From assembly GCA_028281005.1 (NCBI GenBank), contig JANQKS010000118.1, forward strand, positions 1 to 64,000: a DNA stretch of 64,000 bases, given 5' to 3'. Positions within the stretch are counted from its first letter, which is position 1. Each line of letters starts with the position of its first letter. Origin of the DNA: Pseudomonadales bacterium. GTDB lineage: Bacteria; Pseudomonadota; Gammaproteobacteria; Pseudomonadales; Azotimanducaceae. Positions 42,019 to 64,000 of this stretch are shown in pieces. Under the pieces are notes generated by a model. That model saw only the letters and a program-made list of their open reading frames with translations. It made no database searches and was not told the DNA's origin. A program made the position numbers and the translations under genes.

Positions 42019-44535
42019 TTACAGAATGTCGCCTAGGTTCAGCAACTGGGATTCACCACTATTGTCGTCCACCCCATCGTTATCATTGATGATGTAGACA
42101 TCGCCATTTAAGGTCACCGCAGATCCTTCTACCTTCTCAGCGATTAAGCCGCCGCTGGCTTGCAGATCAGGCACCAGGTCGCGCACCAGGGTTTTAGTCA
42201 CGGTATCGCCGTCCGACAAGCCGGTAACGTCAAACGTGTACAGGCGTTTAATCGCGGCGTCCGGCCCACCTTGATTGTCCCGTTCTACCACCAGGAATTC
42301 GCCGCCACCCAAGGCGGTGATGTCTGACAAACCGACCCAACCGCCGTTCTGCGACGTTGGCGTTTCTAAGGGGTAAAACAAGAACGTCCATGCATCGTCC
42401 GCTACGCTGTAGATGCCTATGCGGACATTGGTATCCCCCAGACCACTCCACACCCGCTGGAACGCCACGTATGCTGAACCATCGAACTCCGCGATACCTT
42501 CAAAACCAAAACGCAACTGCTGGGCGTTGATTGCATCGGGCAGAGTGACGACATCTTCGATGACACCATTTACGTCAGTTTTGAAAACGAAGTTCAGGCT
42601 GTTAACCGGGCGTCCCGCATCACCGACGGTTCCGGCACCTTCAGAGGCAACCCAGAATCCGCCGTCGCTGGCCTGAGCGATCCCTTCCGGATCAATGTTG
42701 ACCGTCTTGTCTGCGTTAATAAGCGCCGCGAGGTCTTCGCTATCAAACACGTCCAGGCGCGCCGGATCATCAGCCGCGGTGCCCGCCGCTACCGCTACCG
42801 TGTCTATACCCGCAAAGACGTCATTGCTATCCACCAGGGTGATTTCATCGATGATCACCGCGGGTTGTTGACTGATGTCCATCACAAAGATACGGTTACT
42901 GCCGTAGAAGCTGTCCTCCACCGCGTACATCAGGTAGTCCACAGAGGTGTCTGCGGCCAAGCCTGACATAGCGCTCCACGGATTTGGCGTACCGTCGGTA
43001 CGATCAACAGAAACCAAGGTCGGATAGCTCGGCAGGGTTTGGTCGTATTGATAGATGTTGAGTACCGAACGTATTTTGTCACCGCGATTGTCTTCTTCGC
43101 TGGCCACCACCAGCAAATTGCGGCTTTCGATGGCCAAACCACCCTCAGGACCGACCCCCGCGGGCAAGATTTGCTTCAGCTCAGGATTGGCTGGATCGGC
43201 AACGTTGTATACAAAAATGAGGCTAGAGCGTTCTGAGTTGATAAACAGCAGTAGCTCATTGCCGAACATGCCCACTTCGGCGTTTTCAGGTTCGTTGCCT
43301 TTGTTTCCGGAACGACCATCCGGATAGTGGCCCAAACGCGCCGTTAGATGGTCGTTACTATTGCCGGATGTAAACACAACGTCTCCGGCAATGTTAAAAA
43401 CCGTAAACCCGCGACTGCCGCCGTCCAGGTCACCTTCGTCCGCAGTGGCGAATAGCTGGCTGTTGATCCAAGCCACACCGTCGGGTTCACGCAATATTGG
43501 CGTCGCCGGGGTTTCTGTCTGGGAAATAATGGCCGGGTCTTCTTCGGTCAAGTCGATTTGCGTCAATGACGCCGCACCCGCACTAAATTCGCTGACGATG
43601 CTGCCGTCGGTGATGTCCACCACCACGATGTGGTTGTTCTCCTGCAACGTTACTACAGCCAGGTTGTCAGCATTGATATCAACATACTCAGGCTCCGGAT
43701 CGGTGGGGTATAGATCCGCCAGGCCGGTCAAGTCGACGGTCCGCGTCCCCCAGGTGGCGGGATCACCCGCCGAGTCGACAATGATCAATTCACCGGCAGG
43801 CAATTGCGGCGGAGCGCCGTCACCTAAATCTTCATCGCGTTCGTTTTCAATGGCGATGACCACGTAACTGCCATCCGGGCTGGCGGCAACGGAGTCCGGC
43901 TGACCACCGAGATCGATGCTGGTCACCAGGGCTCGCGTGGCAATGTCGAACACCGCCAGTTCGCCATCTACATTGATGAAGTCGCTGGAGGTGTTGACCC
44001 CCACCACGGCGAAGCCGTTGGTAACTGCTACTGACGTGGGCTCACCGCTTAAAGCCACCGTGGCAATGCCAACTGGATTGGTGGGATCGGTGATATCGAC
44101 AAAGCCAATTTCTTCGCGAGGGCTGTCTGAGTAGATTAGCGTCAATCCATCCGCGCTGGCAGCAACAATTTCTGCCGCAGTTTCTTCGTCCGTATCGCAG
44201 GTGGCGTCAATCTGTGAGCACACGAGAAAAGATGCAACACGATTAAAGTTGAACTCAGAATTGGCCGCGCACAAGGTCGACGATTCTGTTACTTCGCTGT
44301 CTTCCAATGTGCCGCTGGCATCAACATCCAAGCCAGACTCAATCAGCACACCGCCCGTCGGGCACGCTGCACTACCCACGGCTAGATCCGTTTGCCGGGT
44401 CAGGCTGTTAAGACCGGCAGCGCCATCCGCACCGGCATCACCTTGCGGCCCGCGGTCACCGTCATCTCCGTCATCGCAGGCGGCCAACACGGCCACCAAC
44501 GCCACCAACGTAAACACCTTACTCAGGTAGTTCAT
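42019..44535 (-). CDS. Lipoprotein with beta-propeller and esterase-like phytase domain
   Basis: 838 residues. A lipoprotein signal (VALVAVLAAC) is followed by a short collagen-like Gly-x-y stretch (about residues 25-42) and a Cys-containing domain with DVDASGTLEDSEVTE. A YVTN/choice-of-anchor-type beta-propeller (about 100-500) is followed by a C-terminal region with PEGIAQASDGGFWVASEG, the hallmark of the phytase-like esterase domain PF13449. A GAGGG site lies before the ATG. Its place in the phosphate-response block suggests hydrolysis of a phosphorylated or ester substrate outside the cell. No Pho-box was seen directly upstream. Confidence 0.78.
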   Translation of the reverse strand: MNYLSKVFTLVALVAVLAACDDGDDGDRGPQGDAGADGAAGLNSLTRQTDLAVGSAACPTGGVLIESGLDVDASGTLEDSEVTESSTLCAANSEFNFNRVASFLVCSQIDATCDTDEETAAEIVAASADGLTLIYSDSPREEIGFVDITDPTNPVGIATVALSGEPTSVAVTNGFAVVGVNTSSDFINVDGELAVFDIATRALVTSIDLGGQPDSVAASPDGSYVVIAIENERDEDLGDGAPPQLPAGELIIVDSAGDPATWGTRTVDLTGLADLYPTDPEPEYVDINADNLAVVTLQENNHIVVVDITDGSIVSEFSAGAASLTQIDLTEEDPAIISQTETPATPILREPDGVAWINSQLFATADEGDLDGGSRGFTVFNIAGDVVFTSGNSNDHLTARLGHYPDGRSGNKGNEPENAEVGMFGNELLLFINSERSSLIFVYNVADPANPELKQILPAGVGPEGGLAIESRNLLVVASEEDNRGDKIRSVLNIYQYDQTLPSYPTLVSVDRTDGTPNPWSAMSGLAADTSVDYLMYAVEDSFYGSNRIFVMDISQQPAVIIDEITLVDSNDVFAGIDTVAVAAGTAADDPARLDVFDSEDLAALINADKTVNIDPEGIAQASDGGFWVASEGAGTVGDAGRPVNSLNFVFKTDVNGVIEDVVTLPDAINAQQLRFGFEGIAEFDGSAYVAFQRVWSGLGDTNVRIGIYSVADDAWTFLFYPLETPTSQNGGWVGLSDITALGGGEFLVVERDNQGGPDAAIKRLYTFDVTGLSDGDTVTKTLVRDLVPDLQASGGLIAEKVEGSAVTLNGDVYIINDNDGVDDNSGESQLLNLGDIL

Positions 44536-50316: not shown

Positions 50317-50394
50317 AAGCGATCTCAAAAATGTATTTTGAGTGATTGTAGTTGGTGGGATACTGTTTTTCCGAGTTCTCTCGGAAGACCGAAC

Positions 50395-50870
50395 ATGCCT
50401 CGACGTGAAGAACTTCAAGACGTTCAGTGGGACTTGATTGCACCGTTGCTCCCTCGGCAAGCCGGCCGCGGACGGCCTCGTTGCGGAGATAGAGAAGTCC
50501 TCAATGGCATGCTCTGGATTTTGCGCTCCGGGGCGCGCTGGAAAGATTTGCCGGATCGATTCCCTTCTGACCAGACCTGTCATCGACGTTTTCAGCAATG
50601 GCGCGAAAGTGGGGTGTTGGAGAAGATCTTGCGAACTCTGGCAAAGGATCTGCGTGATCGGGGAAAGATCGATGTCGGTGAGTGTTTCATAGACGGAGCG
50701 TTCGCAGGAGCGAAAAAGGGGGCGCTTGCGTTGGGAAAATCGTCTAATGGCGGATGAGAATGGTTTGGTGTTCCCCGTCATTTCATTCAGCGACCTTCGT
50801 GCGAATAAATCTGCACTTGGGCGCCATCAAGACCTAGCCGATCTCGATCAGTTGTATGAAGAATAGTAGT
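50395..50870 (+). pseudogene. Broken IS5-family transposase
   Basis: From the ATG at 50395 the frame reads [20 protein letters not shown], then [20 protein letters not shown] and [14 protein letters not shown], all classical IS5-group N-terminal motifs, and ends at 50757 after [11 protein letters not shown]. In another frame the next part is recognisable ([10 protein letters not shown]...), matching the family's following beta-strand, so a deletion of roughly ten codons has shifted the frame. It then stops at about 50868-50870. The rest of the DDE domain is absent. A CTCAAAA/TTTTGAG inverted repeat (50324-50342) lies at its left. Confidence 0.78.
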
Positions 50871-51258: not shown

Positions 51259-52197
51259 ATGCGAATTCTGGTAACCGGCTCTTCAGGACTAGTAGGTAGC
51301 GCGCTATGCACAAGGCTCCGTCGAGACGGCCATGAAGTGGTGCAATACGACATCCGGATCCAGCCTGGATTAGCCGGACACGGAGATATCCTCGATACCT
51401 GGACATTCTCACAGGCGGCGAATGGTTGCGATGGCATTGTGCATCTCGCTGCCGTTTCGCGCGTCGTCTGGGGCGAAAGTAACCCTTACCTTTGCCACAA
51501 AATCAATGTCGACGGTACTCGCAATGCGCTCGCGGTAGCGCGTACCTCGATTCCTCAACCATGGGTCCTGTTTGCGAGCAGTCGCGAAGTTTATGGACAA
51601 CAGAGTGTATTTCCCGTAGTCGAGTCAGCAAGTACAGTGCCGGTAAACACCTACGGTCGCTCGAAATTAGCCGGCGAGCAACTGGTCACGGAAGCGGTCG
51701 AGTCCGGCTCCAATGCATCAACGATGAGGTTGTCCAACGTTTTTGGGTCTGTGGACGATCATGCAGACCGCGTTATCCCGGCTTTTGCACAGGCAGCTGC
51801 TGTGGGAGGTATTCTGCGTGTGGAAGGTCGACAGTCTTCCTTCGACTTCACCCCCCTCTCAGACACGATTGACGGCATCACAAGACTGATTTCGCTGATC
51901 AGTCGCGAAGGTCCCCAACCGCCGATACATCTTGTCACCGGGAGAGAAACGACGCTTGGTGAGCTCGCGGAGTTAGCCACGAGGTTGGGCCATTCGAATT
52001 CGCAGATCATCGAGAGACCCGAGCGAAAATACGACGTATCGCGCTTCGTCGGTGATCCGGGTCAGGCGCTGTCTCGACTAGGGTGGAAACCGAGTCTTTC
52101 TCTCGAGCAAGCGCTGCAGAACCTGATCGATGAATTTGGCCGGGCAAAACAGCAAATCACAAGTACATCCGAACAACTCGCCGCACACCCGGCTTGA
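51259..52197 (+). CDS. NAD-dependent epimerase/dehydratase (extended SDR)
   Basis: 312 residues from the ATG at 51259, where the fold begins (MRILVTGSSGLVGSAL); ATG 51229 and TTG 51217 are earlier alternatives. TGSSGLVGS binds NAD, Ser-Ser in FASSREVYG and Tyr/Lys in YGRSK form the catalytic set, as in UDP-glucose 4-epimerase and dTDP-sugar enzymes. It converges on the minus-strand glycosyltransferase/nucleotidyltransferase gene with a 43-base gap. It probably makes an activated sugar for that cluster. Confidence 0.87.
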   Translation: MRILVTGSSGLVGSALCTRLRRDGHEVVQYDIRIQPGLAGHGDILDTWTFSQAANGCDGIVHLAAVSRVVWGESNPYLCHKINVDGTRNALAVARTSIPQPWVLFASSREVYGQQSVFPVVESASTVPVNTYGRSKLAGEQLVTEAVESGSNASTMRLSNVFGSVDDHADRVIPAFAQAAAVGGILRVEGRQSSFDFTPLSDTIDGITRLISLISREGPQPPIHLVTGRETTLGELAELATRLGHSNSQIIERPERKYDVSRFVGDPGQALSRLGWKPSLSLEQALQNLIDEFGRAKQQITSTSEQLAAHPA

Positions 52198-52240
52198 TTT
52201 GCGCACATGCGCTCGCGGCCAGACAAGCCATGGGCTGAAC

Positions 52241-54754
52241 CTACCCGCTGTTTTCCCTAACCCAGTTGCTCCTGCGCTCCGCGTGAATCTGGCAGATCAT
52301 ATAGAGTAGGTTGGCGAAAACCGATGCGTACGGCTTGAAAGTACGGAACTGCCAGATGAGCGATTCGAACGATAACAACTCTGCAACGGGCCGCACATCC
52401 GGTTCAAAACTTTTGCGCATGACGTCGCGGGCAATAAGGTCGGTGAAGCCTGGCGTATTGATGCGCGCAACTGCGCCGCGGGCGAGCCTAATGGTCAGTC
52501 GTTCGCGTTCCGCAATTTTCAGAAACTTGACGTGTGAGGCGTCGTTAGCTGAAACAAGGCGACCGGCGACATCTTGCGTCGACGCGCAATGCCGGATCCA
52601 TAGACAGGCGAAGTACGGGAAGAAGGGAACACCATCGACCGCAAGGTATCCGCGAAAGCTCTGCAGTTCGAGATAGCGCCCGAGAACGGTTGTCTCGCAA
52701 AGCACTGGTCCAACAGTGACGTCATGGCCTGCCGCGCTGCTTCGAAACCGCTCGAACCAGTCTGAACTGACGGTGACACCGGCTTCCATCCAGACCGTGT
52801 AAATATTTTTTACCGGCTCACACTCAGCCAGCTCGCGCAGCAAACCAATCGAAGACAGAACCGCAATGTCCAGCGAGATGTCATTCGGACAGTGCTGGTT
52901 GAGGGATTCGACCGTGCGCTCTACTGCGGCGGAGTTAGTGGGTCGTCCCGATACACGGACATACAATTGCAACGCAGGCCGGGAGGCAACAACAGCCTCG
53001 ACTTCTTCCGAGGGTAACAATGCATCGAGGTACGCTGCGTACCGGTACTCGTCGTAAAAATCCACGTCGAACACCGAAAACGGATCCTCGAGATGCGTAA
53101 ATCGCACCCGTTCACCGACGGCAAAGCTCAGGAATTCTTCGATTGTCCCTTCCGCCGGGCGCGCGCTCGGCAGCAATTGTCCGAGAATGGCTTGTGCGGG
53201 AAGTAATGGTTTTATCCGACCGGCGAGGCGCAACTGGTCGCGACGATCATCCAGCAACCCAGCAATCTGCTGGGCTGAATCTCGGGCGACTCGCCGGGAC
53301 AGTAATCCGAAACTCGCCCCGGTATATAACCCCTCTCGCAGGGGGAAGTAGCGATAACGTCTGATCCAGATCCACTGCTGAAGTGCTTCTCGGCGGATGA
53401 GAGGATAAGCAACCTCGGTGCCGTGCGGGATCGAATCGACGAAATCGCGCAGGTGGCGGGCTTCGAGGAACGGAATGTCGGCCGCCATGACAACAGCCCG
53501 TTCGGCCTCGAACCGCTCGAAACCCGCGGCGAGGTTCTCATAGATACTACCGACGGCGGGAACCTTGACAATATCGGCGCCGACAGAAGCCAGCACCTCA
53601 GCACGACCGACGACGACGATGGTGGAGAAGATCTGCGCGGCGCAGGCCGCGTCCACAACTCGAGTGACGAGGCTCCGCGATCCAACGGACAACAAGCTCT
53701 TATCCGTGATGCCGGTGCCGCGCCACTTGTGTTCTTCTGCACCACCACCAGCAAGAATAATGCATGCTGTCGGTTCCGGCGGACACAAATCGCCGACCAA
53801 CGGTATCTGCGATTCAGACTCGTTCCGCCGCATCATCCGGAAATACCCGAACCGCAGTGCCGCCATCGTCATCCCGGCGAGCAGGCTGTACGGATAACGT
53901 CGCCAGCCAAGCTCAACTTTGCCACGCATCTGACCCATGGCACCACGTAAAAACCGACTCAGTGACTTCGCGCTGAATCGCGCCGGCTTGATCATCCCGT
54001 ATTGCCAGCGCTTGTATTCGCCTTTGCCGTACCGATAGTACATTTTGACCACACCTCGAACAGTAGTCGGGTGACGGTGCAGCACCAGTGCATCGGTCTC
54101 GAGCTTCAGGTAATAACCCCGCTGTGTCATTGCGAACGACAAGAGAGTGTCTTCGCCGCCGGCCCAGGTGATGTCTGTCTTGAATCCACCAACCTCCAGG
54201 AGCGTCGTCCGGCGATAGGCAGCGTTGGCTGTCACGGCGTAGTCGATGTTGCCAGCGGCATTCTTCGGTGGACGCAGCGCATGCTGCGCGTCGACGAAAC
54301 GCGGAATGAATCCCTCGGTCAAACGAACGGTCTTGCCGCCCACGCCCGCACACTTGGAATCATCGAGAAGGGCGCAGACGATCATCTTAAGCCAATCGGG
54401 ATCAGGCACACAATCGTCGTCGGTAAACGCAACGATTGCACCTTTCGCAAACCGGATACCGAGATTTCTCGCAGCGCCGGGACCGCGGTGCGGCTGCGAG
54501 CGATAAGACACTTCAGGTTCGGCTGTTGCGGCAAAATCTCTGATGAGCTCAGCAACCGCGAAGTCGCGCGGTCCATCCTCGACAACAATGATCTCAAAGC
54601 TATGAGCATCGAAGTTCTGCCGGTTGAGTGCAGCAAGGCATTCGCGCAACAGCTGAGGTCGACCCATGGTCGGGATGACCACGCTTACCTGAATCAAATC
54701 CGGTGTACCGACAGGTTCGATTTCTTCGTCGCGGTTCCGCTCCGGCCGGTTCAA
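52241..54754 (-). CDS. Three-part fusion: GT2 glycosyltransferase, MobA-like nucleotidyltransferase and a C-terminal domain
   Basis: 837 residues. Residues about 20-310 are a family 2 glycosyltransferase: VSVVIPTMGRP, the DDD motif at 112-114, AGGEDTLL. Residues about 329-530 are a MobA/GlmU-like nucleotidyltransferase: IILAGGG, a following Lys (KSLLSVGSRSLVTRV) and AADIPFL. Residues about 540-837 are a further domain with a glycosyltransferase-A-like look (VWMEAGVTVSSDWFERF) that I cannot assign. Thus one chain may make a nucleotide-activated unit and transfer it. The start is TTG at 54754 in a TTGA overlap with the carbamoyltransferase stop; no nearer ATG exists. Last gene of the minus-strand operon. 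Confidence 0.8.
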   Translation of the reverse strand: MNRPERNRDEEIEPVGTPDLIQVSVVIPTMGRPQLLRECLAALNRQNFDAHSFEIIVVEDGPRDFAVAELIRDFAATAEPEVSYRSQPHRGPGAARNLGIRFAKGAIVAFTDDDCVPDPDWLKMIVCALLDDSKCAGVGGKTVRLTEGFIPRFVDAQHALRPPKNAAGNIDYAVTANAAYRRTTLLEVGGFKTDITWAGGEDTLLSFAMTQRGYYLKLETDALVLHRHPTTVRGVVKMYYRYGKGEYKRWQYGMIKPARFSAKSLSRFLRGAMGQMRGKVELGWRRYPYSLLAGMTMAALRFGYFRMMRRNESESQIPLVGDLCPPEPTACIILAGGGAEEHKWRGTGITDKSLLSVGSRSLVTRVVDAACAAQIFSTIVVVGRAEVLASVGADIVKVPAVGSIYENLAAGFERFEAERAVVMAADIPFLEARHLRDFVDSIPHGTEVAYPLIRREALQQWIWIRRYRYFPLREGLYTGASFGLLSRRVARDSAQQIAGLLDDRRDQLRLAGRIKPLLPAQAILGQLLPSARPAEGTIEEFLSFAVGERVRFTHLEDPFSVFDVDFYDEYRYAAYLDALLPSEEVEAVVASRPALQLYVRVSGRPTNSAAVERTVESLNQHCPNDISLDIAVLSSIGLLRELAECEPVKNIYTVWMEAGVTVSSDWFERFRSSAAGHDVTVGPVLCETTVLGRYLELQSFRGYLAVDGVPFFPYFACLWIRHCASTQDVAGRLVSANDASHVKFLKIAERERLTIRLARGAVARINTPGFTDLIARDVMRKSFEPDVRPVAELLSFESLIWQFRTFKPYASVFANLLYMICQIHAERRSNWVRENSG

Positions 54755-56766
54755 TGGACTTTAACCAGATCTGCGCGGACGAGCCTCGCCAGGCCGCGAC
54801 GAAGGCGCAACTCAGTCCACTCCCGGGGTGCGCTTGCGGCTCTCAAATCGTCGAGTAACTGCCTCCCGGACGATGCTTCCCCGCACATATTCATGATCGT
54901 CTCGGTATCGCGGTCGAGCCGCACGGGGCGCTTACCCCACGGCCTTTGCGGAGCCGAGTCATACACCCGCATGCCCCCTCCGCAGTCGCGGTAGCTCTCA
55001 TTGATATCGATGGCGGCAAGATACCGATAGTCGAGAATGCTGCCGAACGCCGGGTGTTTCGTCACAATGTGACGTTCGAATACGATTGCATCCAGATCTG
55101 AAAACAGGAGGCTCCACATCGCATCCTCCGGAGTCTCGACAATGGGTTCGCCGAGCACGTTAAAAGAAGTGTTCAACAACATCGGCACCCCTGTTTGCTC
55201 GCCGAAGACGGTAAGGCAGTCATGAAGCCGGGGGTGAGTTTCTCGCGTCACCGTCTGGACGCGCCCCGTCCCATCGATGTGAGTAACCGCGGGGACCTTT
55301 TGACAGACTGTTGGTTTGAAACGTACAACCCGCATCATGAACGGACTCTCGACGTCCGGTCCAATCACATCGAACCATTTTCCCAATTCTTCCAATAGGA
55401 TAACAGGAGCGAACGGGCGAAAAGATTCCCGATGTTTGACCTTGGCGTTCAGACGGTCTTTCGCGACGGCTGATCGGGGGTCGGCAAGAATGCTGCGTTG
55501 CCCCAGAGCGCGTGGCCCGAATTCCGATCCGCCTTCGAACCAGCCGATCGCGGCTCCGTCAATCAATGCTTCCACTGCTGGCGCCACGGTGTCGTGGTAC
55601 TCAGCAGAGATCTCAACGGCGCCAGCTGGCATGCCAGCCGCGGCAGCACGAATATCATTGGCGGAATAGCTGATCCCCGGAGAATCGCGCTTCAACCGGA
55701 CGGTTGCACGCGGTTTGACCATGGCGTGGAGCCCGTGGAACGCCGCTCCAATTGCGAGCCCGCTATCCTCTGCTGCAGGGACAAAATAGTGGTGTGAGAA
55801 AATACCACGACGGATCAGTTTTTCATTGGCTACGCTATTGAGGGCAACACCACCAGCGAACGCAAAATTCCGGGAAGAACTGAGTTTTCCGGCATGCTCG
55901 AGAAGATACAACAAGGCATATTCAAGCGCGCGCTGAACCGAGCAGGCGAGGTCCGCGTAGTCGGATTGATGCGACGGCCACGAATCACGCGGCTGTGCAA
56001 ACTGCCTGACCGCTTCGTTCCGGAAGTGGAACACACCCGCGTCGTCGATACTCAGGAAGTGTTCGATCGGATATCGCGGATTCCCGTATGGCGCGAGCCC
56101 CATGACCTTGCCGGCATCGAGCGCCTCATCGAACATCAACTTGGCCGCGGCTGAGAACATTCCGCCCAGACTGCCGAATTGGCGCATACCCGGCCCGGGA
56201 ATAAGCCAGCTTCCGATATGTTTCTCGATCAGTTCGATCCCGTTCCGGTCCGCCCGATAGATACCCACAGTTTCACCCTTGAGCGCGTTTGGGATCGGTG
56301 TTCTGGACGCGATCACGGCTTCTTTCGCGGCAGTCGCCTCAACGGGAAAGTAGCGATTGAGCGAATCCAGGGATTCTCCCAGGCCGTCTGCAACCAAGAT
56401 TGCGGCGTTGTCGTATCCTGACGTCGCCCATGCACTCCAGGCGTGGGCAAGATAGTGGGGGACGAAGTCGATTCGATCGGGCGGCACCGGAGAGTCCTTG
56501 AGATTTCTGGCACTCTCTTGTGCGGACAAACTCCCCTTGGTTGCGACGACAATGCGGTCAACGTGCGTAAGCCTTATGCCTGCAGCTTCGAGACAGTAGC
56601 GCACGGCAAGGGATTCGAGGAAGGCAGGGTTGAGTTCGGCGCGCTTGATCCGGGTCAGCCGCTCTTCCTGAATGGCGGCTACCAGCTTGCTGCCCTTGAG
56701 CAAGCACGCGCTACCGTGATGCGACGTGTTAACGCCTAGAACCCATGGCTCTGCTCGCGTCGCCAT
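54751..56766 (-). CDS. NodU/TobZ-type carbamoyltransferase with PqqD-like C-terminal extension
   Basis: 671 residues. The N-terminal Kae1-like half has VLGVNTSHHGSA and the metal motif HxxxH (His104, His108 in HYLAH); the YrdC-like half has FEGGSEFGPRALGQRS and NTSFNVLGEPIVETPEDA. These are the hallmarks of O-carbamoyltransferases that use carbamoyl phosphate and ATP. Past the usual end, about 610-671 form an extra helical/winged-helix-like module (DTETIMNMCGEASSGRQLLDDL...LARLVRADLVKV) resembling PqqD-type peptide-binding domains; this is a tentative reading. The start ATG at 56766 shares a base with the upstream stop (TGATG). Confidence 0.82.
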   Translation of the reverse strand: MATRAEPWVLGVNTSHHGSACLLKGSKLVAAIQEERLTRIKRAELNPAFLESLAVRYCLEAAGIRLTHVDRIVVATKGSLSAQESARNLKDSPVPPDRIDFVPHYLAHAWSAWATSGYDNAAILVADGLGESLDSLNRYFPVEATAAKEAVIASRTPIPNALKGETVGIYRADRNGIELIEKHIGSWLIPGPGMRQFGSLGGMFSAAAKLMFDEALDAGKVMGLAPYGNPRYPIEHFLSIDDAGVFHFRNEAVRQFAQPRDSWPSHQSDYADLACSVQRALEYALLYLLEHAGKLSSSRNFAFAGGVALNSVANEKLIRRGIFSHHYFVPAAEDSGLAIGAAFHGLHAMVKPRATVRLKRDSPGISYSANDIRAAAAGMPAGAVEISAEYHDTVAPAVEALIDGAAIGWFEGGSEFGPRALGQRSILADPRSAVAKDRLNAKVKHRESFRPFAPVILLEELGKWFDVIGPDVESPFMMRVVRFKPTVCQKVPAVTHIDGTGRVQTVTRETHPRLHDCLTVFGEQTGVPMLLNTSFNVLGEPIVETPEDAMWSLLFSDLDAIVFERHIVTKHPAFGSILDYRYLAAIDINESYRDCGGGMRVYDSAPQRPWGKRPVRLDRDTETIMNMCGEASSGRQLLDDLRAASAPREWTELRLRRGLARLVRADLVKVH

Positions 56767-57767
56767 CAACGTTCGGCAAAAAAATCTGCGACAGCCCTAA
56801 TGTCGACAAAAGCATTCGCGTCAGCCGCGCGTATGGCTGCAATATCATCGGATGTGTAGAGCACATGATTCTGGAAGTAGCTGCTGAGCTCGGCTGCGGT
56901 GAGCGTCGGATCGTTGACCAGGTCGACAAACAACGTCCGCAGCGGTCGAACCCGCCGTCCGAGACTGGTGAACTCCGGGAAATTCCGGAAATTACGATAC
57001 TTCCAGACAAAGTGCGGAAAGCTCAGGATGTTGTAGTGGAGCAAAGTTTCCGCATCGCGCTTCTCGCCGGGCGTATGGAATTTCGATGTCAACACTGTGA
57101 AGTAAGCTTCCGGATGAGTCCGCACAGCAAGCTTTCCTGAAGTGTGCCCCCAGAACCAGCCCGCCGGGACGCGCTCGTTCTTGTACGGGTCTGGCAGCGT
57201 GGACTTCGGTAGTGTTGCAAGCTCACGAGGTTCAACCCGATTCTTGAAAAGTGTGTCTTCGAACGGTTGGTGCTGCGTCATCGAAGTGGGTACGACTTCG
57301 ACGTTCAGAAACCGGATTGCGCCAACCTCATCAGGCGTGGCATCAAGGTACTTAAGAAGCCCGCGTTTCTCGGCTTTCAACGGATCGAGACAGATGAGCT
57401 CATCTGGATCAAGGCTGACCAGCCAATCGATGTCGTTTTCTCGACACAGCTCCAACGCCATATTTGCGTGCAGGACCTGGCGGATACCGTTGTGCTCCGC
57501 GAACTTCTTCACCAGAAGCGCAACGTCGAGTTCGTCTTTGCCTGAGTTGTAAGGTAACAGGTCGGTAAGCGTCAGATTCTCGAAAACGGTGACGTCGCTT
57601 CGATGCTCGACCGTCTCTTTGGACCTGTCCGTCGAGTGGTCGAGAAACACAAAAAAATGAGTAATACCCAAGTGATGATGGTAGCGGATGTTGTCGAGCA
57701 ACATGCCTTCTTCGTTCTTGACGGTAAGGACGCAGGCAATCTTCATGCGCATCGCACCGGCAGCCAT
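56766..57767 (-). CDS. Glycosyltransferase-like protein (PF13704 type)
   Basis: 333 residues of the Glyco_tranf_2_4 kind: IACVLTVKNEEGMLLDNI, FVFLDHSTD and the metal site DPDE (Asp120, Asp122, Glu123 in SLDPDELI). GT-A fold, soluble, no signal. Related enzymes work in glycan or surface polysaccharide synthesis. Starts at ATG 57767, 57752 or 57746 are possible. It lies 21 bases after the LRR gene and overlaps the carbamoyltransferase start. Confidence 0.8.
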   Translation of the reverse strand: MAAGAMRMKIACVLTVKNEEGMLLDNIRYHHHLGITHFFVFLDHSTDRSKETVEHRSDVTVFENLTLTDLLPYNSGKDELDVALLVKKFAEHNGIRQVLHANMALELCRENDIDWLVSLDPDELICLDPLKAEKRGLLKYLDATPDEVGAIRFLNVEVVPTSMTQHQPFEDTLFKNRVEPRELATLPKSTLPDPYKNERVPAGWFWGHTSGKLAVRTHPEAYFTVLTSKFHTPGEKRDAETLLHYNILSFPHFVWKYRNFRNFPEFTSLGRRVRPLRTLFVDLVNDPTLTAAELSSYFQNHVLYTSDDIAAIRAADANAFVDIRAVADFFAER

Positions 57768-57788
57768 GCGCCCGGGAGTAAATATCGA

Positions 57789-58913
57789 TCAATATGAAAC
57801 ATCGCAGCCCCTTGCTCGCAACGGTTTCGTGTGGCTTTGCATCCCCGCACGATCAAACCCATTTCGATCCAGCCAGACGGTTTCAAGCTCGTCGAGGCGA
57901 CAGAGCCCCGACGGGAAATAGCAGAGCGCGTTCAGCTGCAGATCGAGGTGACGCAGCCGCAGTCCCCAGAAGGTCTCCGGGAGATTAGCGAGCGCGTTCT
58001 CGCGCAGCCATAACTTGCGCAAAGACTTCAAGCCGCCAATCGATTCCGGCAACGCAGCCAGTTGACACCGATTGAGTTTCAGCGTTCTGAGCTTGGTCAA
58101 CGATCCGATTGACGCAGGCAGGCACCCCAACGCATTTCCGTCCAGGTAGAGTGCTTCGAGGTTCCGCAGGTTGCCGATACCGTAGTTAAGCTCGGTAAGC
58201 GCGTTGTCGCGAAGGTTCAGAACGCACAGGCTCTCAAGCTCCCAGAACGCGTCGGGCAGTGAAGCAATTGCATTGTCCCAAAGATTGAGCTCCACAAGTC
58301 TGGTCAAACCCGAGATCGTTTCCGGGATCTCAGTCAGAGCGTTACGCTTGAGATCCAGGCACACCAGATTGGAGAGGTTGCCGATTGTTCGAGGTAGCGA
58401 ACGGATTCGATTGGCGTAGAGGTAAAGTCGACGTAAGCGTGCAAGCCCGCCCAGGCCGTCGGGCAACGTCGTCAGAAGATTGTTATTCGCCCAAAGCGAG
58501 TCGAGATTCGATAGATTGACGATGGTGGACGGTAAGGCAGCCAACTCGTTCCCCTCGACGTCGAGTCTCTTCAGATGTTCCAACTGCCCGATCTGTATCG
58601 GCAGAGCACGAATCCTGTTGCCGGAAAGCTGCAGCTCGCGCAATTGAGACAAGCAAGCGACCGAATCGGGCACACCTCGAAGACAATTGTCTCGGGCCGA
58701 CAGCAGTCTGATGTCACGGAGCTCGAAAACCTCCTCAGGCAGAGCGTCGAGTCCACAGTTATCGAGCAGGAGCGACACAACGTTACCGGCGGTGTCGGTG
58801 CCCACTTCCGGCCGCACACCGGAAACGGTTTCGAGGCGGTCGAGGATCTTTGCGTCCCTGACGGTAACCGCAGGATTACTTTGCTCTTCTATATGACCGG
58901 ATGGCTCACGCAT
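57789..58913 (-). CDS. Leucine-rich-repeat protein, about 13 repeats
   Basis: 374 residues from the ATG at 58913, whose eight-base overlap with the upstream gene's stop decides the start; the longer open frame would run over that gene. After about 45 residues come 13-14 repeats of 23 residues with the pattern LxxLxLxxNxLxxLPxxIxxL. No signal peptide or membrane segment, so cytoplasmic. LRR arcs usually bind proteins or peptides; in this biosynthetic setting it may scaffold enzymes or hold a substrate. Such proteins are rare inside biosynthetic operons. Confidence 0.85.
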   Translation of the reverse strand: MREPSGHIEEQSNPAVTVRDAKILDRLETVSGVRPEVGTDTAGNVVSLLLDNCGLDALPEEVFELRDIRLLSARDNCLRGVPDSVACLSQLRELQLSGNRIRALPIQIGQLEHLKRLDVEGNELAALPSTIVNLSNLDSLWANNNLLTTLPDGLGGLARLRRLYLYANRIRSLPRTIGNLSNLVCLDLKRNALTEIPETISGLTRLVELNLWDNAIASLPDAFWELESLCVLNLRDNALTELNYGIGNLRNLEALYLDGNALGCLPASIGSLTKLRTLKLNRCQLAALPESIGGLKSLRKLWLRENALANLPETFWGLRLRHLDLQLNALCYFPSGLCRLDELETVWLDRNGFDRAGMQSHTKPLRARGCDVSY

Positions 58914-60099
58914 TTTGTACCGTCTCGAACCGCGGCAATTGCCATCGCAGGATTTCGGGATTGTTCGCGAAGATGCCGAAGAACGGTTCGACAATACGCA
59001 CATATCGAAACTCGAAAAGGTGACCGTAGAGCGACAGGTCGTGAAGACCGGCAAAGCAGAACACGGTCTCTGCTGGCAGCCGGGTGCTGAGTCGAACGGC
59101 GGCCTCATAGGAAGCGTCACAGAAAAGCACAAAGTCGAACTCTCTCTGCGGAGCCGCCAGTGGCTCAGAAGTCTCGAACACGTCAGCCGTGTGTGGCAGA
59201 TGCTGTCGATACTTCGAAACAGACGATGTCGCCCCGACAGCAAGCACCCTGCGCGGGTTTGCTGCAGCGATGATCGCTCGAAGATGTCGATCAATGGATG
59301 CGGACACGATGCGCGAGACCCGCCGGTCGAGATCGGGCTTGGTGTCGGTTAATCCCGAGTAGTCAAAGTGTTCGTTGGGGGATTCGGCGGGTTTGCTGTG
59401 GCAATAGCGGCTCACGAAACAATCCCATTGCTCCTTGAGCCACGGTATGTGGCGTACCATGGTGCGATGCACGACATTTGCATTCGGATTAATCCCAAAA
59501 TAGGACGCGATCCAGTTATAGCTTGTCGGGAACGGACGTGCTGATGCATGCAACCCGGTGCTGTAATAGGCCAGTCGATAGCTGATTTGATCGCGACGGA
59601 ATTCGCCGTCGTAGAGATCCAGAACGCGATGCCACCAGACGTCCCATTCGCGCGCGAGCTGAATAATGCGTTCCCTGTCCCCCGCGATCACACCGCTATT
59701 CCATTCGACGCCGCATAGGGCACCGCCGCGGTCAAAAACGTCGAGCCCATGGCTGCTGTAAAAATCGGAAACGCGCTCCTCGAACTTCGCGGGATCGCTC
59801 TTCTTGGGCACTTGCGCATCCAGGGGGATACGCCACGGAATCCGCCACGATCCATTCACGGCATCGAATCCGTCCGGCTCCAGCACCAGCGTGTCGGCAT
59901 CCAGATAAACAATGCGCTCGCACGTAGTAGGGGCGTCGAGCAAGCCTTCTATCTTCAAGTGTTTTGCTTCGTGCGCCGCAAGCTTTTTCTCGCGCAGGAC
60001 ACTCAGGCGGATACCTCGGCGCGCGAGCGACTGCTCAAGATGTGCCGCTTGCTCCTGGTAATCCTCTCCGGCCGCGACCGTGAACCAATACGTTTTCAT
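58906..60099 (-). CDS. GT8-like glycosyltransferase with C-terminal Rossmann-like region
   Basis: 397 residues. YLDADTLV (Asp67, Asp69) is the DxD nucleotide-sugar site of GT-A/GT8-type enzymes; CGVEWNSGVI and the WNxG-type segment match family patterns. After about residue 260 a second part begins (RRVLAVGATSSVSKYRQHLP...FDFVLFCDASYE) that looks like a methyltransferase/Rossmann fold but lacks clear motifs. The ATG overlaps the radical SAM stop (ATGA). Soluble. Confidence 0.72.
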   Translation of the reverse strand: MKTYWFTVAAGEDYQEQAAHLEQSLARRGIRLSVLREKKLAAHEAKHLKIEGLLDAPTTCERIVYLDADTLVLEPDGFDAVNGSWRIPWRIPLDAQVPKKSDPAKFEERVSDFYSSHGLDVFDRGGALCGVEWNSGVIAGDRERIIQLAREWDVWWHRVLDLYDGEFRRDQISYRLAYYSTGLHASARPFPTSYNWIASYFGINPNANVVHRTMVRHIPWLKEQWDCFVSRYCHSKPAESPNEHFDYSGLTDTKPDLDRRVSRIVSASIDRHLRAIIAAANPRRVLAVGATSSVSKYRQHLPHTADVFETSEPLAAPQREFDFVLFCDASYEAAVRLSTRLPAETVFCFAGLHDLSLYGHLFEFRYVRIVEPFFGIFANNPEILRWQLPRFETVQNA

Positions 60100-61475
60100 G
60101 GCTGCCGCGCATGGAACGCCCGGAGCGCTTCGTCTGTAGGGTTGTCAAGGAGCGCCAGGACATCCGCATTGTCCGTGGGATTTCGCCAGCCAAGCTCACC
60201 TTCGGCAACCAGCCGGTTTGCGAGCCAGACATTTAAGTGCAAGCGCCGGATCGAGTTGAGGAGGACAAGGTAAAGAAACTGTTGCACGGTCTGGGTATCG
60301 CGCTCGATCCGTTCGAGTACCTGCGGCGCAAATTGCGCCGTAAAGTCCACGAACGGCTGGAGACCATCTCGCTGCAACGTGAGGGCAATGGGATCCACTG
60401 CCAACCGCCTGGCAATCTCGGACCATGTTTCGGTGAGCAGATTGCCGACAACGCATGGCGCAGGAGGCGCAAAGAGCACATCGTAAAGACCGACACGGCC
60501 ATCCGCACCGATCGTGAACTCGTACCTCGGTCGCGGCCGGTCAGCTAGCGATCGAACGAGCGATCGAGGTGTCCGGGCAATCGCTGCAGCGGGCGGATTG
60601 AGAAGCGCCCTGCTGACGAGAGACACCGGGAAAGAATCCACCGCTAGCGACTTGGTTGGCCCATCACCCGCCCGGTATTCATACGTTGCCGTTACAACAT
60701 TGCCGTTCGGGTCGCGACAAGACGTATCTGTTAGCTCGAAACCGGACGCCGCAAGCGCCTGGAGAACGTCCTGATAAGTCCTGTCCTCCGGGTTAGCCTC
60801 TGCATGTGAAATGCGGATACGGATCTCCGGTGCATTGTGGTAGAGCGCCGCGATGATCTGCGCCTGGGCTTCGCCCAGGTGTTGTCCCTGTGCAGCGCCA
60901 TCCACATGATGCTGATCGTAGGAAAGAATCAGGGTGACGTTCTCGCGCTCGACGCAGGGGTTTTCATCAATCGAGGTAACGAACGTATCGACATATTCCC
61001 GGCGCCGCTCGTCCGCTATCCCCCAGAAACCGTTACTGTAAATGCAATCGACCGGCAACTGCGCAAGGATTTCCCCGAAGTGCGGGAGGATAAACAACTC
61101 TCCGCCCGAGATCGTCCAGCGCAGGTCTGAAAGTTGCGAGCAATTGTGCTGGATCTTCCGCAAATCGCTGAGCTGCAAACCCGCTTTCGCTTCAGGACCC
61201 GAGAACACCCAACAATGCGGACATACAAAATTACACGCCTGTGTCGCGCTGATCAGCAATCGTCGTGGAGGTTCGAGCGTGACCGCGCTTGCCAGCCTCG
61301 CCTGATTGAATATGTGACGAGCCTGCTCCACCTCGGCTTGTCGCAAGCTGTCAAGATCCGCCGGATCGCTCAAAATCGAGCGCCCAAACCGCCCGTATAG
61401 CGCCGCAAGATAGGGCCCTCGTTCTGACGGAACGATTTCAACGAGCGCTACAGAATGTTGCTGCGTGGATGACAT
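60096..61475 (-). CDS. Radical SAM protein (second in the cluster)
   Basis: 459 residues from the ATG at 61475 (a longer frame would run over the NUDIX gene). The [4Fe-4S]/SAM site is CxxxCxxC with Cys81, Cys85 and Cys88 (ACNFVCPHCW), followed by the GGE motif (SGGELFI). A C-terminal region DGRVGLYDVL...CVVGNLLTETW looks like a SPASM domain but has kept only one of its cysteines, so it is probably a degenerate auxiliary-cluster domain. It makes a radical-based change on an unknown substrate, possibly a peptide. Confidence 0.82.
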   Translation of the reverse strand: MSSTQQHSVALVEIVPSERGPYLAALYGRFGRSILSDPADLDSLRQAEVEQARHIFNQARLASAVTLEPPRRLLISATQACNFVCPHCWVFSGPEAKAGLQLSDLRKIQHNCSQLSDLRWTISGGELFILPHFGEILAQLPVDCIYSNGFWGIADERRREYVDTFVTSIDENPCVERENVTLILSYDQHHVDGAAQGQHLGEAQAQIIAALYHNAPEIRIRISHAEANPEDRTYQDVLQALAASGFELTDTSCRDPNGNVVTATYEYRAGDGPTKSLAVDSFPVSLVSRALLNPPAAAIARTPRSLVRSLADRPRPRYEFTIGADGRVGLYDVLFAPPAPCVVGNLLTETWSEIARRLAVDPIALTLQRDGLQPFVDFTAQFAPQVLERIERDTQTVQQFLYLVLLNSIRRLHLNVWLANRLVAEGELGWRNPTDNADVLALLDNPTDEALRAFHARQP

Positions 61476-61488
61476 CACATTCGAATGG

Positions 61489-61992
61489 TTACTTCCCTTG
61501 CCCACGTTTGACCTGCTCGACCTCCAAAGCATCAGCCAGCATCAACTCGGCCGTTTTCTTCGCATTCCAGCGCAGGACTTTGACGAATTCTCTGGTTTCG
61601 AAATCCATCCGTTGTGTCATCTCGAATTGTGGATCGAACACCCCGTTGTCAATGCGTACCCAGTAGCGTGCCTGGTAGAAAAGCGGGCGTCCCCCCGCGG
61701 CAACCGGAGTGCGCTCATACGTGCGAATGCTCCCGAGATACTCACAGTCGGCAACCGTTGCGCACGCTTCCTCAGCAACCTCCCGAACCAGGGCCTCTTG
61801 CAGTGTCTCTCCGTTTTCCGGCCAACCGCCCGGGCATACCCAACCGGTGCCGTTGCTGACCATCGTGATCCTGCCGCCCGGTGTGAAGCATATTCCGCTC
61901 GACTGAATCGTGAGATCCGGCGGCGGAACGAAGGGCGCGGGTAACCACTCGGAATCGAACACGCGCTCACCACGTTTGTAACGCTCGAGCAT
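61489..61992 (-). CDS. NUDIX hydrolase
   Basis: 167 residues. The Nudix box GX5EX7REVxEE is present in GGWPENGETL...REVAEEA (about residues 56-76), with a clean beta-strand context before it. Cleaves a nucleoside diphosphate linked to another group (for example an NDP-sugar or NADH-like molecule). It starts three bases after the PEP-synthase-like stop and ends 13 bases before the radical SAM start. Confidence 0.85.
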   Translation of the reverse strand: MLERYKRGERVFDSEWLPAPFVPPPDLTIQSSGICFTPGGRITMVSNGTGWVCPGGWPENGETLQEALVREVAEEACATVADCEYLGSIRTYERTPVAAGGRPLFYQARYWVRIDNGVFDPQFEMTQRMDFETREFVKVLRWNAKKTAELMLADALEVEQVKRGQGK

Positions 61993-61995
61993 TGC

Positions 61996-63165
61996 TCAAG
62001 CCTCCAACGGCACGCGCGGCGTCGGATACAGCGGTCGAAACTGCACAACTTGAAAGCAAAGCTGACGGTCGACCACAAATTCGACGTCAATGGGAATACC
62101 GATCGTCGTTTCCAGACGCTGAACGTCGCGAATGAATCGAACAAACGCACCCTGCAGTCGCGTTTGCGGATAGTTTTGCATCGCAGCACTCCAGTCCTCG
62201 GTCAGTCCTTCCAGCGCGGCAGGATTGTCCGCCTCGTGAAGCGAGAAGAAATTTGATGCAGGGGCGTTGCCGAACCGGACATCGAACACCCAGTCGGAAA
62301 CCACAGGGTTCCAGGGGTGCCCCGTGTATAACACACCGCGTAAGACCGACGGAACAAACTCCTGGGCGATGATCACGAGATCTTGCGGTCGTTCGCAGCT
62401 GTTGAGCTGACGCGCCAAGGCGGGCTCAAAATCGCTCGCACATTCTACCGTGAGTGACGGAATTGCAGAGCTACCAGGAGAGCCCTGCGATTGTGGCAAC
62501 GACGCACGCAGTATGAGTCGTTGGTCGCCATCCAGGTCAGGGAACGTTTGCCGGATCGCGTGCTTGATACGATCCACGTTACCTGGCTCGCGATACAGCC
62601 ATGGTTGTGTGATGAGGAGGCTTGACGGCGTCGGCACGCGCAGGCAGACGAGGGCGTTCACCGCCGTTGCCTTCTCTCCCCAGAGGCTAGGTGTCTCGTG
62701 GCTGCAGAGGTCCAGATGACCCAGCATGCTGGGCAATTTGGTGAGCGTACGACGATAGCTTGCACGCACCTTTGGGTAATCGCCCATCGGCAGGTGATCG
62801 CTTCCACAGTCAAGCCGACAAACCTCACCGCTTTGCGCTGCTTCCGCGGTTTTGCGATAGTGGTCACGGCCGATGCAAGCCGGGAGTCGATGTTCACGGA
62901 GAAAGCGGCCGAAATGGCTAAACGGGGTACCCGATGCGAAGACAAACCCCAGCGCAACTGGAACGAGCGGCGCCAACGCCATCGAAGGCCGCTCACAGGC
63001 AAAGATCTGCTTGTCGGCCAACCCGGACACTTCGCTTGCGTCGCTACCAGTAAGCACAACACGGCCTTCGCACGACCCGGGGCTCACCAGACCCGGATTC
63101 TCGACTGACCATGTCTCAACCACGATCTGGATCAAGCGTGCTGCTCCAGCTTCGCCAGGTTGCAT
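61996..63165 (-). CDS. PEP-synthase-like protein with swivel domain before the ATP-grasp domain
   Basis: 389 residues. At about 25-105 is a phosphohistidine swivel-like domain (PGSCEGRVVL...ASGTPFSHFGRFLREHRLPACIG) with candidate His84. At about 161-385 is the ATP-grasp part of PEP synthase/PPDK: LWGEKATAVNALVCLRVPTP, LILRASLPQSQGS, AQEFVPSVLRGVLYT and DVEFVVDRQLCFQVVQFRPL. In ordinary PEP synthases the ATP-grasp comes first and a PEP-binding domain last; here the order is reversed and that last domain is missing. Start is ATG 63165, or GTG 63123 just after the isochorismatase stop. Confidence 0.78.
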   Translation of the reverse strand: MQPGEAGAARLIQIVVETWSVENPGLVSPGSCEGRVVLTGSDASEVSGLADKQIFACERPSMALAPLVPVALGFVFASGTPFSHFGRFLREHRLPACIGRDHYRKTAEAAQSGEVCRLDCGSDHLPMGDYPKVRASYRRTLTKLPSMLGHLDLCSHETPSLWGEKATAVNALVCLRVPTPSSLLITQPWLYREPGNVDRIKHAIRQTFPDLDGDQRLILRASLPQSQGSPGSSAIPSLTVECASDFEPALARQLNSCERPQDLVIIAQEFVPSVLRGVLYTGHPWNPVVSDWVFDVRFGNAPASNFFSLHEADNPAALEGLTEDWSAAMQNYPQTRLQGAFVRFIRDVQRLETTIGIPIDVEFVVDRQLCFQVVQFRPLYPTPRVPLEA

Positions 63166-63710
63166 AGTTCCGCGTTGGTCATGAACTCAATGTTGAACAT
63201 GTTGCGCAGACGTTCAATAACAAAAATTGCAATATCCGTCCTGTGACTCGTGACGCAATCGCTTGCGACAATGACTTCGAAATCCAGACTCCACGCATCA
63301 ATCGCCGTGAGCGCAATGCAGCCATGGGTGTACACACCTGCAAGAACAATCCGTTCAATGCCCCTGTCGCGCAGCGTCTTTTCGAGCTCCGTGCGCACGA
63401 ACGCGCTGTGTCTGGTTTTGACAAAGACCGTGCAGGCCGCATCGAGCTCAAGACCGGCAACGCTTTCAGCTTCCTCCGTCCCCTCTATCAAACACCCGCC
63501 ATCGTGTTGCAGCATGTTGCGGGACCATGTGCTTCGATCGGCTTTGTGCACGCTCGATATATTGATGGTGCACCAGGCGGGATGATTCGTGGCATGCGCT
63601 GCTAGCTCGTTGACGGATTGCAGTAGCCCGGGGAATGCTTCTCGTTTCTGTGGCGTGTTGAAGAAATAGTTCTGCATGTCGAGAACCAGCAGCGCTGTTG
63701 TGGGGTTCAT
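63132..63710 (-). CDS. Isochorismatase-like cysteine hydrolase
   Basis: 192 residues. The catalytic triad of the family is complete: Asp11 (VLDMQNYF), Lys98 (VKTRHSAF) and Cys131 (THGCIALTA), and the cis-peptide region LAGVYTHGC is typical. This family cleaves isochorismate, amides such as nicotinamide or N-carbamoyl compounds, or other small substrates. The ATG overlaps the upstream stop (ATGA). In this cluster an amidase-type role is as likely as isochorismate cleavage. Confidence 0.85.
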   Translation of the reverse strand: MNPTTALLVLDMQNYFFNTPQKREAFPGLLQSVNELAAHATNHPAWCTINISSVHKADRSTWSRNMLQHDGGCLIEGTEEAESVAGLELDAACTVFVKTRHSAFVRTELEKTLRDRGIERIVLAGVYTHGCIALTAIDAWSLDFEVIVASDCVTSHRTDIAIFVIERLRNMFNIEFMTNAELCNLAKLEQHA

Positions 63711-64000
63711 CGTTCGAGCCCAAGTCTGCTTGCGATCTCAGGACGCTCGCTCAGCAACCGCTCCCACGTCGGCGAGATCATCAATTCCGCTTCGCGACGA
63801 AAACCCAGCGCTTCGAAATAGTGCCCACAATAGCGGCATGTTTCATGGAGAATGGACGCCATGTTTTCAAAATCGACTTCGCGCAAGGACTGCACCGCGA
63901 GCTTACCCCCCATCACAACGTCATCTAGAGCCGCCGATACCGCACACGGGTAGTAGCCGCGGTAACTCAATGCAATGCCGCATTGATAGGACTCCTGACA
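63707..64000 (-). CDS. C-terminal part of a radical SAM/SPASM-like protein (cut by the window edge)
   Basis: The frame is open to the edge (at least 97 residues, ending at 63707). It reads CQESYQCGIAL, GYYPCAVSAALDD and CRYCGHYFEAL, a cysteine spacing typical of C-terminal auxiliary-cluster (SPASM/twitch) regions of radical SAM enzymes; the SAM-binding part would lie further right. Its stop overlaps the isochorismatase start by four bases (ATGA), so it belongs to the same operon and is its first visible gene. Confidence 0.6.
   Translation of the reverse strand, partial: CQESYQCGIALSYRGYYPCAVSAALDDVVMGGKLAVQSLREVDFENMASILHETCRYCGHYFEALGFRREAELMISPTWERLLSERPEIASRLGLER

Follow-up and report, generated by a model that had tools for sequence, protein, structure and literature searches.

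The question raised by this locus was whether ten tightly packed genes that combine radical S-adenosylmethionine (SAM), carbamoyltransferase, phosphoenolpyruvate (PEP) synthase-like, glycosyltransferase, and leucine-rich repeat (LRR) functions encode one pathway and, if so, what that pathway would make. The genes were found in a Pseudomonadales bacterium (family Azotimanducaceae; assembly GCA_028281005.1) at the right end of the window, the 64,000-base stretch that was analyzed, which corresponds to bases 1 to 64000 of the 79,018-base contig JANQKS010000118.1. The host genome contains 5.135 Mb in 135 contigs and is 98.67% complete and 2.01% contaminated. With a probability of roughly 0.4, the ten-gene operon, probably together with its divergent neighbors, would encode an orphan pathway whose product is glycosylated and O-carbamoylated and in which LRR modules serve for docking or recognition. 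The operon and the neighboring genes are referred to here as the island.

Gene content and packing of the operon

The operon consists of the following open reading frames (ORFs), g1 to g10.

g1, 63707 to 65908 (63707 to 64000 inside the window), minus strand: phosphatase-LRR-radical SAM fusion, 733 amino acids
g2, 63132 to 63710, minus strand: isochorismatase-like cysteine hydrolase, 192 amino acids (PF00857, E = 5.3e-36), with the motif GVYTHGC
g3, 61996 to 63165, minus strand: permuted dikinase-like protein, 389 amino acids; alternative start at TTG 63135
g4, 61489 to 61992, minus strand: NUDIX hydrolase with an intact Nudix box (PF00293, E = 2.9e-9)
g5, 60096 to 61475, minus strand: radical SAM protein, 459 amino acids from the likelier ATG at 61475 or 478 from the ATG at 61532
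g6, 58906 to 60099, minus strand: no family match; candidate GT-A-type transferase from an LDAD motif read by eye
g7, 57789 to 58913, minus strand: LRR protein with LRR_8 matches, 374 amino acids, starting at ATG 58913
g8, 56766 to 57767, minus strand: glycosyltransferase of GT2_4/GT92 type (PF13704, E = 1.4e-12; PF01697, E = 4.9e-6)
g9, 54751 to 56769, minus strand: NodU/NolO-type O-carbamoyltransferase with a 100-residue C-terminal tail (residues 573 to 672)
g10, 52241 to 54754, minus strand: fusion of a GT2 domain (PF00535, E = 4.1e-25) and a MobA-like nucleotidyltransferase domain (PF12804, E = 1.4e-16)

These ten ORFs run from 65908 to 52241, and the first crosses the right edge of the window. 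With the starts judged likeliest, the successive junctions measure −4, −34, +3, +13, −4, −8, +21, −4, and −4 bases (−34 becomes −4 if g3 begins at TTG 63135), and ORFs overlap at 6 of 9 junctions. The overlaps at 63707, 60096, 56766, and 54751 named in the initial annotation are present in the sequence, and the ten-gene minus-strand operon with tiny gaps or overlaps that it described was borne out. It had also placed the first gene or genes beyond the window, which is true of part of g1; the operon ends just to the right, with g1 starting at 65908. Packing of this kind suggests a single transcript. Promoter-like matches were rarer than in shuffled sequences in two scans (2 versus 4.6 and 3 versus 5.0), and terminator-like matches numbered 14 versus 9.5 (standard deviation, 3.4) and 9 versus 13.4. 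G+C content at third codon positions was 0.61 to 0.70 in 15 island genes, with no single obvious foreign block. Catalytic motifs in the operon are intact, including HCX5R, two CX3CX2C motifs, the Nudix box, and the swivel histidine, and the earlier isochorismatase, NUDIX, carbamoyltransferase, LRR, and nucleotidyltransferase fusion labels were all supported by Pfam.

Carbamoyltransferase and glycosyltransferases

The joint presence of a carbamoyltransferase, a nucleotidyltransferase, and a glycosyltransferase suits a product that bears both sugar and a carbamoyl group. Both Pfam carbamoyltransferase domains were found in g9 above their cut-offs (PF16861, C part, E = 5.5e-63; PF02543, N part, E = 1.5e-32). 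Its best match in the PDB was GdmN (E = 5.3e-77), novobiocin carbamoyltransferase and TobZ also matched, and identity to the carbamoyltransferases in the best 10 of 309 plasmid records was 32 to 37%. The first domain of g10 resembled MftF (TIGR03965, E = 4.4e-39), but its 134.6 bits fall short of the 280-bit cut-off and hence of the equivalog level. The C-terminal part of g10 had no family match, and its assignment as a second GT2 domain was rejected because the score did not exceed those of 40 shuffles. Of the three glycosyltransferase-like proteins annotated initially, g8 and g10 were upheld by Pfam, while searches of Pfam, NCBIfam, and PHROGs with g6 were empty and the PDB gave nothing meaningful for it. 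Kinship of g6 with g8 or with the protein encoded at 71442 to 72356, to the right of the operon, was likewise rejected, as scores were not above 40 shuffles.

The tail of g9 had been described as a PqqD-like part. Against a 25-sequence PqqD profile it scored 17.9 (best of 100 shuffles, 15.4) with an hhalign probability of only 2.5%, and against four NolO-type tails, two of them nearly identical, it scored 19.5 (best of 100 shuffles, 19.4) with a probability of 5.7%. The earlier description was not confirmed: the tail surpassed 100 of 100 PqqD shuffles, but at low probability, and similarity to NolO tails competes with it. From 32 loci, 26 carbamoyltransferase ORFs were obtained; at least 150 residues followed the NTSFN-type motif in 5 (NolO, three NolO-like proteins, and one larger fusion) and 39 to 74 residues in the other 21; g9 has 140. 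The NolO substrate is not a peptide.

These results bear on two alternatives. In the first, the operon would encode a small-molecule or oligosaccharide pathway, with a Nod-factor-like carbamoylated glycan or a nucleoside- or aminoglycoside-like product and no direct part for the LRR genes. GdmN, novobiocin carbamoyltransferase, TobZ, and NolO, all of which g9 resembles, have small molecules or Nod factor as substrates, the g9 tail scores equally well against NolO tails and PqqD, and g10 joins a nucleotidyltransferase to a glycosyltransferase. This alternative is nevertheless rather unlikely, as it leaves the concentration of LRR genes, the LRR gene inside the operon, and the LRR fused into g1 unexplained.

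In the second, the g9 tail would be a recognition element of a pathway for ribosomally synthesized and posttranslationally modified peptides (RiPPs), with the precursor peptide encoded elsewhere in the genome. PMC12710340 reports RiPP recognition elements (RREs) attached to PF02543 carbamoyltransferases and PF00535 glycosyltransferases, so there is precedent for a carbamoyltransferase with an RRE-type tail in such pathways. The fold rule given there is three strands followed by three helices, and the AlphaFold2 model of the tail, made without an alignment, has the predicted order strand-strand-helix-helix-helix at a predicted local distance difference test score (pLDDT) of 50. The score of the tail above all PqqD shuffles and the match of g5 to the peptide epimerase YydG point the same way. 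A RiPP pathway is improbable, however, given the low PqqD probability, the single meaningless match (E = 7.8) returned by Foldseek with the tail model, and the lack of a precursor near the operon. Furthermore, when the genome itself was searched for the PqqD family at an E value of 10, the single match lay on a different contig and none on this one. The g9 tail could possibly act as a peptide carrier.

LRR proteins

Two further LRR genes lie to the right of the window.

66009 to 67154, plus strand: LRR gene, divergent from g1 across a 100-base gap
67165 to 68343, plus strand: LRR gene

All 20 LRR_8 matches (E ≤ 0.001) of the 5.135-Mb genome fall within 57924 to 68289 (10.4 kb) and in four proteins, namely, g7, the LRR part of g1, and the products of the two plus-strand genes; this count refers to one model, LRR_8, which other LRR types may escape. 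Nothing else ties the LRR genes to the island as strongly as this confinement of every LRR_8 match in the genome. The four proteins align through an N-terminal cap, and their best long mutual alignments are 31 to 38% identical, with no DNA similarity among the four genes by blastn; the duplications therefore look old. LRR_8 matches were found in 6 of 40 genomes of the genus, including this one.

The small precursor gene anticipated to the right of 64000 was not found, the next gene after the operon start being the first of the two LRR genes, and no precursor-sized gap occurs within 52241 to 65908 or just upstream. This lack of a gap, the confinement of all LRR_8 matches to the island, and the fusion of one LRR to an enzyme (g1) would be consistent with the LRR proteins (g7 and the two to the right of the window) being themselves the substrates of a protein modification system, decorated by the radical SAM proteins, glycosyltransferases, carbamoyltransferase, and a kinase/phosphatase pair. 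Such a role is quite unlikely: by eye, the LRR proteins stop shortly past the last repeat and have no core-like tail, and an enzyme-fused LRR suits recognition better than a substrate role. It is also doubtful, if somewhat less so, that the LRR proteins would form the scaffold of a biosynthetic complex in which the g1 fusion and the three free LRR paralogues gather the dikinase, glycosyltransferases, and carbamoyltransferase on one substrate, maybe a protein or peptide.

Permuted dikinase-like protein

Pfam matches of g3 to PEP-synthase-like parts reached E values of only 0.05 and 0.095. For comparison by hhalign, five PEP-synthase-like proteins (827 to 927 amino acids) of the same genus and family were each divided into an ATP-grasp and a swivel part. 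The latter aligned to g3 residues 8 to 129 (score, 51.7; probability, 92.7%; maximum of 30 shuffles, 18.3), and the ATP-grasp part aligned to residues 120 to 389 (score, 34.4; E = 8.2e-4; maximum of 30 shuffles, 21.3) with a probability of only 24%. The swivel histidine is that of GTPFSH, and the ATP-grasp residues K, R, E, and R are kept, with WGEK, ILRAS, DVEF, and QFRP aligning to the family positions. The two alignments fill the 389 residues, leaving the PEP/pyruvate barrel missing. From these profile alignments and kept residues, g3 is permuted, with the swivel part preceding the ATP-grasp part, and lacks the barrel, in agreement with its earlier label as a domain-swapped PEP-synthase-like protein. 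The swivel histidine and ATP-grasp residues place g3 in the phosphohistidine dikinase superfamily, and its permutation is supported well for the swivel part and moderately for the ATP-grasp part.

In the literature searched, the nearest published analogues of g3 appear to be the rifampin phosphotransferase and HpeHI dikinases, which likewise combine ATP-grasp and phosphohistidine swivel domains without a PEP/pyruvate barrel (PMC12167813); in g3, unlike in these enzymes, the domain order is reversed and no acceptor-binding domain was recognized.

Radical SAM proteins

The initial annotation had counted two radical SAM-type proteins. The gene at the right edge encodes such a domain, as part of a larger fusion. 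The dual-specificity phosphatase domain of g1 occupies residues 13 to 127 (Pfam; motif HCSAGVSR), the LRR region spans approximately residues 207 to 425, and the radical SAM domain has CSLECPNC at 501, GGEP at 547, and more cysteines up to the C terminus. The radical SAM part belongs with a small family that has a CGxGLTPxGYYPCAVAGGIDR-type C terminus, with 32 to 39% identity to g1 at 33 of 34 loci and 30% (partial) at the remaining one. Unlike these proteins, g1 adds the phosphatase and LRR domains: no relatives of the phosphatase domain were found at the 34 loci, and LRR relatives were found at one, about 8 kb away.

The second radical SAM label, that of g5, was weak in Pfam (PF04055, E = 0.013, under its cut-off), yet the CX3CX2C motif present in g1 also occurs in g5, as CNFVCPHC, and g5 matched the YydG epimerase model (E = 1.1e-5, under the cut-off) and YydG in the PDB (E = 1.4e-4). 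Against the third radical SAM protein, encoded to the right of the window, g5 scored 22.8, barely above shuffles (21.5).

Flanking genes

Beyond the two LRR genes, the operon is flanked by the following genes.

68351 to 69271, minus strand: DUF1848 protein
69160 to 70347, minus strand: third radical SAM protein
70384 to 71442, minus strand: protein without a Pfam match, GT-B-like by eye
71442 to 72356, plus strand: gene without a Pfam match, with hypothetical proteins as plasmid relatives
51217 to 52197, plus strand: NAD-dependent sugar epimerase/dehydratase-like protein (PF01370, E = 2.9e-36), convergent at the operon end; membership uncertain

The GT-B-like, radical SAM, and DUF1848 genes form a second minus-strand set (68351 to 71442), the last two ORFs of which overlap by 112 bases as listed. 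The protein encoded at 71442 to 72356 has full-length relatives (41 to 42% identity), all hypothetical proteins, on plasmid records of Burkholderia contaminans (two) and Cupriavidus (two), and the surroundings were unrelated at both of the relatives examined (2 of 4). A short piece of an insertion sequence (IS) transposase of the IS4/5 type (50338 to 50757; DUF4096, E = 9.9e-28) lies close to the left end of the island, flanked by the epimerase gene and a pair of two-component regulator genes. Of 39 other genomes in the genus, only 2 had relatives of the left-flank histidine kinase (41% and 26% identity), and for this reason an empty site was not found in the genus. Farther left in the window, at 42019 to 44535, is the gene for an 838-amino-acid protein that combines DUF7151 with an esterase-like phytase domain (PF13449).

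Recurrence of the island

Relatives of the operon genes were sought in related genomes, plasmids, and viral contigs. At an E value of 1e-3, g3 was matched in 7 of 146 related genomes including its own, the six others being partial matches to larger frames, and no g3 relative was found in plasmids or viral contigs. Relatives of g5 occurred only in its own genome among 369 genomes of the class (E = 1e-8) and in no plasmid; at 1e-5, the phylum search matched 4 of 398 genomes including its own, the three others being distant (27 to 36% identity). No second island gene was found at the two of these three distant regions that were examined; beside one of the distant regions was an ORF resembling a GT2 transferase by eye. 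A pattern scan of the genome_contigs collection, which reaches close relatives only, found no relative of g5, and scans of viral contigs with g3, g5, g6, and the right-hand radical SAM gene found none either. The radical SAM part of g1 was matched in 2 of 369 class genomes including its own, in one plasmid record, and at 34 genome_contigs loci from several phyla, confirmed among 80 pattern-matching stretches. The carbamoyltransferase was matched in 45 of 398 genomes including its own (E = 1e-60), with 35 to 46% identity in the aligned stretches of the others; in two of the genomes, a distant g5 match occurs as well, at a different place from the carbamoyltransferase.

Neighborhoods were compared by tblastn with 21 island pieces against 95 loci (E = 1e-4) and again with the GT-B-like gene included (22 pieces; E = 1e-3), with E values that refer to small local databases. 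Flanks of the radical SAM loci extended up to 10 kb, some being shortened by contig ends. An epimerase-like gene was found at 8 of the 34 radical SAM loci, a GT2-like gene at 1, and an LRR gene at 1, and the right-hand radical SAM protein was weakly matched at 2; 1 of 29 short carbamoyltransferase loci (3.3 to 4.7 kb) had a GT2-like gene. These counts show common parts without the other specific genes, and the island is therefore an orphan in this sample. The initial annotation had named scattered homologues that never occur together as a result that would refute its reading, and for the common parts the sampled loci show such scatter; the test has little power for g3 and g5, because neither has close relatives in what was searched.

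Several results weigh against a single pathway. No second example was met among the sampled genomes, which is a main doubt. None of the 34 radical SAM loci had a relative of g2 to g6, g8, g9, the DUF1848 gene, or the two unannotated right-hand genes (E = 1e-3), and among 20 carbamoyltransferase regions (10 to 20 kb), an LRR gene was found in 1 and no other island gene in any. The LRR regions of five other genomes of the genus (5.5 to 19.9 kb, three ending at contig ends) had no non-LRR relative of the island. Pfam recognized neither a precursor nor a transporter, regulator, or resistance protein among the ten products of the operon. The LRR models that g1 and g7 matched in NCBIfam describe type III effectors, internalins, and fibronectin-binding proteins; every one of these matches lay far under its cut-off and is uninformative on function. 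The structure predictions were poor, both for the g9 tail and for g3, whose single-sequence AlphaFold2 model (pLDDT, 32) was discarded in favor of the profile comparison.

The scatter of homologues, the plasmid relatives of the 71442 to 72356 protein in unrelated surroundings, and the IS4/5-type piece would fit a mosaic, in which a variable region has collected unrelated genes whose cotranscription is accidental. The overlapping junctions (with the chosen starts), the even codon composition, and the concentration of LRR genes argue against a mosaic, which is considered unlikely.

Two other origins were rejected. PADLOC models for known antiphage defense systems matched the ten operon proteins only weakly, the best matches being g4 to PDC-S07 (E = 1.4e-6) and g5 and g1 to the viperin-type pVip (E = 6.8e-5 and 9.1e-4). 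PHROGs matches of the operon proteins included LRR, NUDIX, isochorismatase-like, and glycosyltransferase families and a strong Nol-like carbamoyltransferase match (1.2e-101); a phage origin was rejected because the carbamoyltransferase was only 31 to 32% identical to the best 6 of 134 phage records.

Three plasmids were considered separately. LRR and radical SAM genes about 4.5 kb apart on a Vibrio parahaemolyticus plasmid were judged a coincidence; the two are separated by an IS3 transposase, and a search of that region yielded no radical SAM relatives of either g1 or g5. A Salinivibrio kushneri plasmid (14830 to 20303 of the examined region) carries a relative of the g1 radical SAM part, then a hypothetical gene, and then genes for 1,020- and 273-amino-acid glycosyltransferases on the opposite strand. 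A Piscinibacter gummiphilus plasmid carries TfuA-like, DUF692, and ABC transporter genes next to the gene for a 1,112-amino-acid protein annotated as a carbamoyltransferase of C-terminal type, a set that looks like an unstudied peptide modification cluster with a carbamoyltransferase.

Proposed pathway and known systems

From gene content, we infer the reactions, their order, the role of the LRR modules, the unity of the pathway, and its product as follows. The radical SAM enzymes (g1, g5, and the right-hand one) would modify a carbon skeleton or peptide, and g3 would charge its swivel histidine from ATP and phosphorylate an intermediate, from which the NUDIX protein (g4) and the g1 phosphatase domain may remove phosphate. 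The MobA-like domain of g10 would make a nucleoside diphosphate-activated sugar or polyol, its GT2 domain would transfer the sugar with the aid of g8, and g9 would O-carbamoylate the product. Through putative docking or recognition, the LRR modules (the three free LRR proteins and the LRR of g1) may hold the enzymes and the substrate together.

Two known systems overlap with this gene set in part. Like the NodU/NolO/GdmN O-carbamoyltransferases, g9 has both carbamoyltransferase domains; unlike them, it is found with radical SAM, LRR, and permuted dikinase genes, and its tail is only loosely NolO-like. Mycofactocin-type clusters comprise the MftF glycosyltransferase, a radical SAM protein, and a PqqD-like protein, and the operon shares with them the MftF-like first domain of g10, radical SAM proteins, and possibly a PqqD-like tail in g9. 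It differs in that g10 falls under the MftF cut-off and in its additional carbamoyl and LRR genes, and no other mycofactocin family in NCBIfam matched the ten operon proteins except weak radical SAM ones. The initial annotation had called the combination undescribed, and judging by the titles and abstract openings in the literature searched, no pathway of this kind was found.

If the island is a mosaic, it would caution against inferring pathways from gene order in one genome. If it encodes one pathway, it would pair an LRR interaction module with radical SAM and sugar chemistry, a pairing apparently without a published description in the titles and abstract openings searched, and it would offer a permuted His-swivel/ATP-grasp dikinase (g3) without a recognizable acceptor domain.

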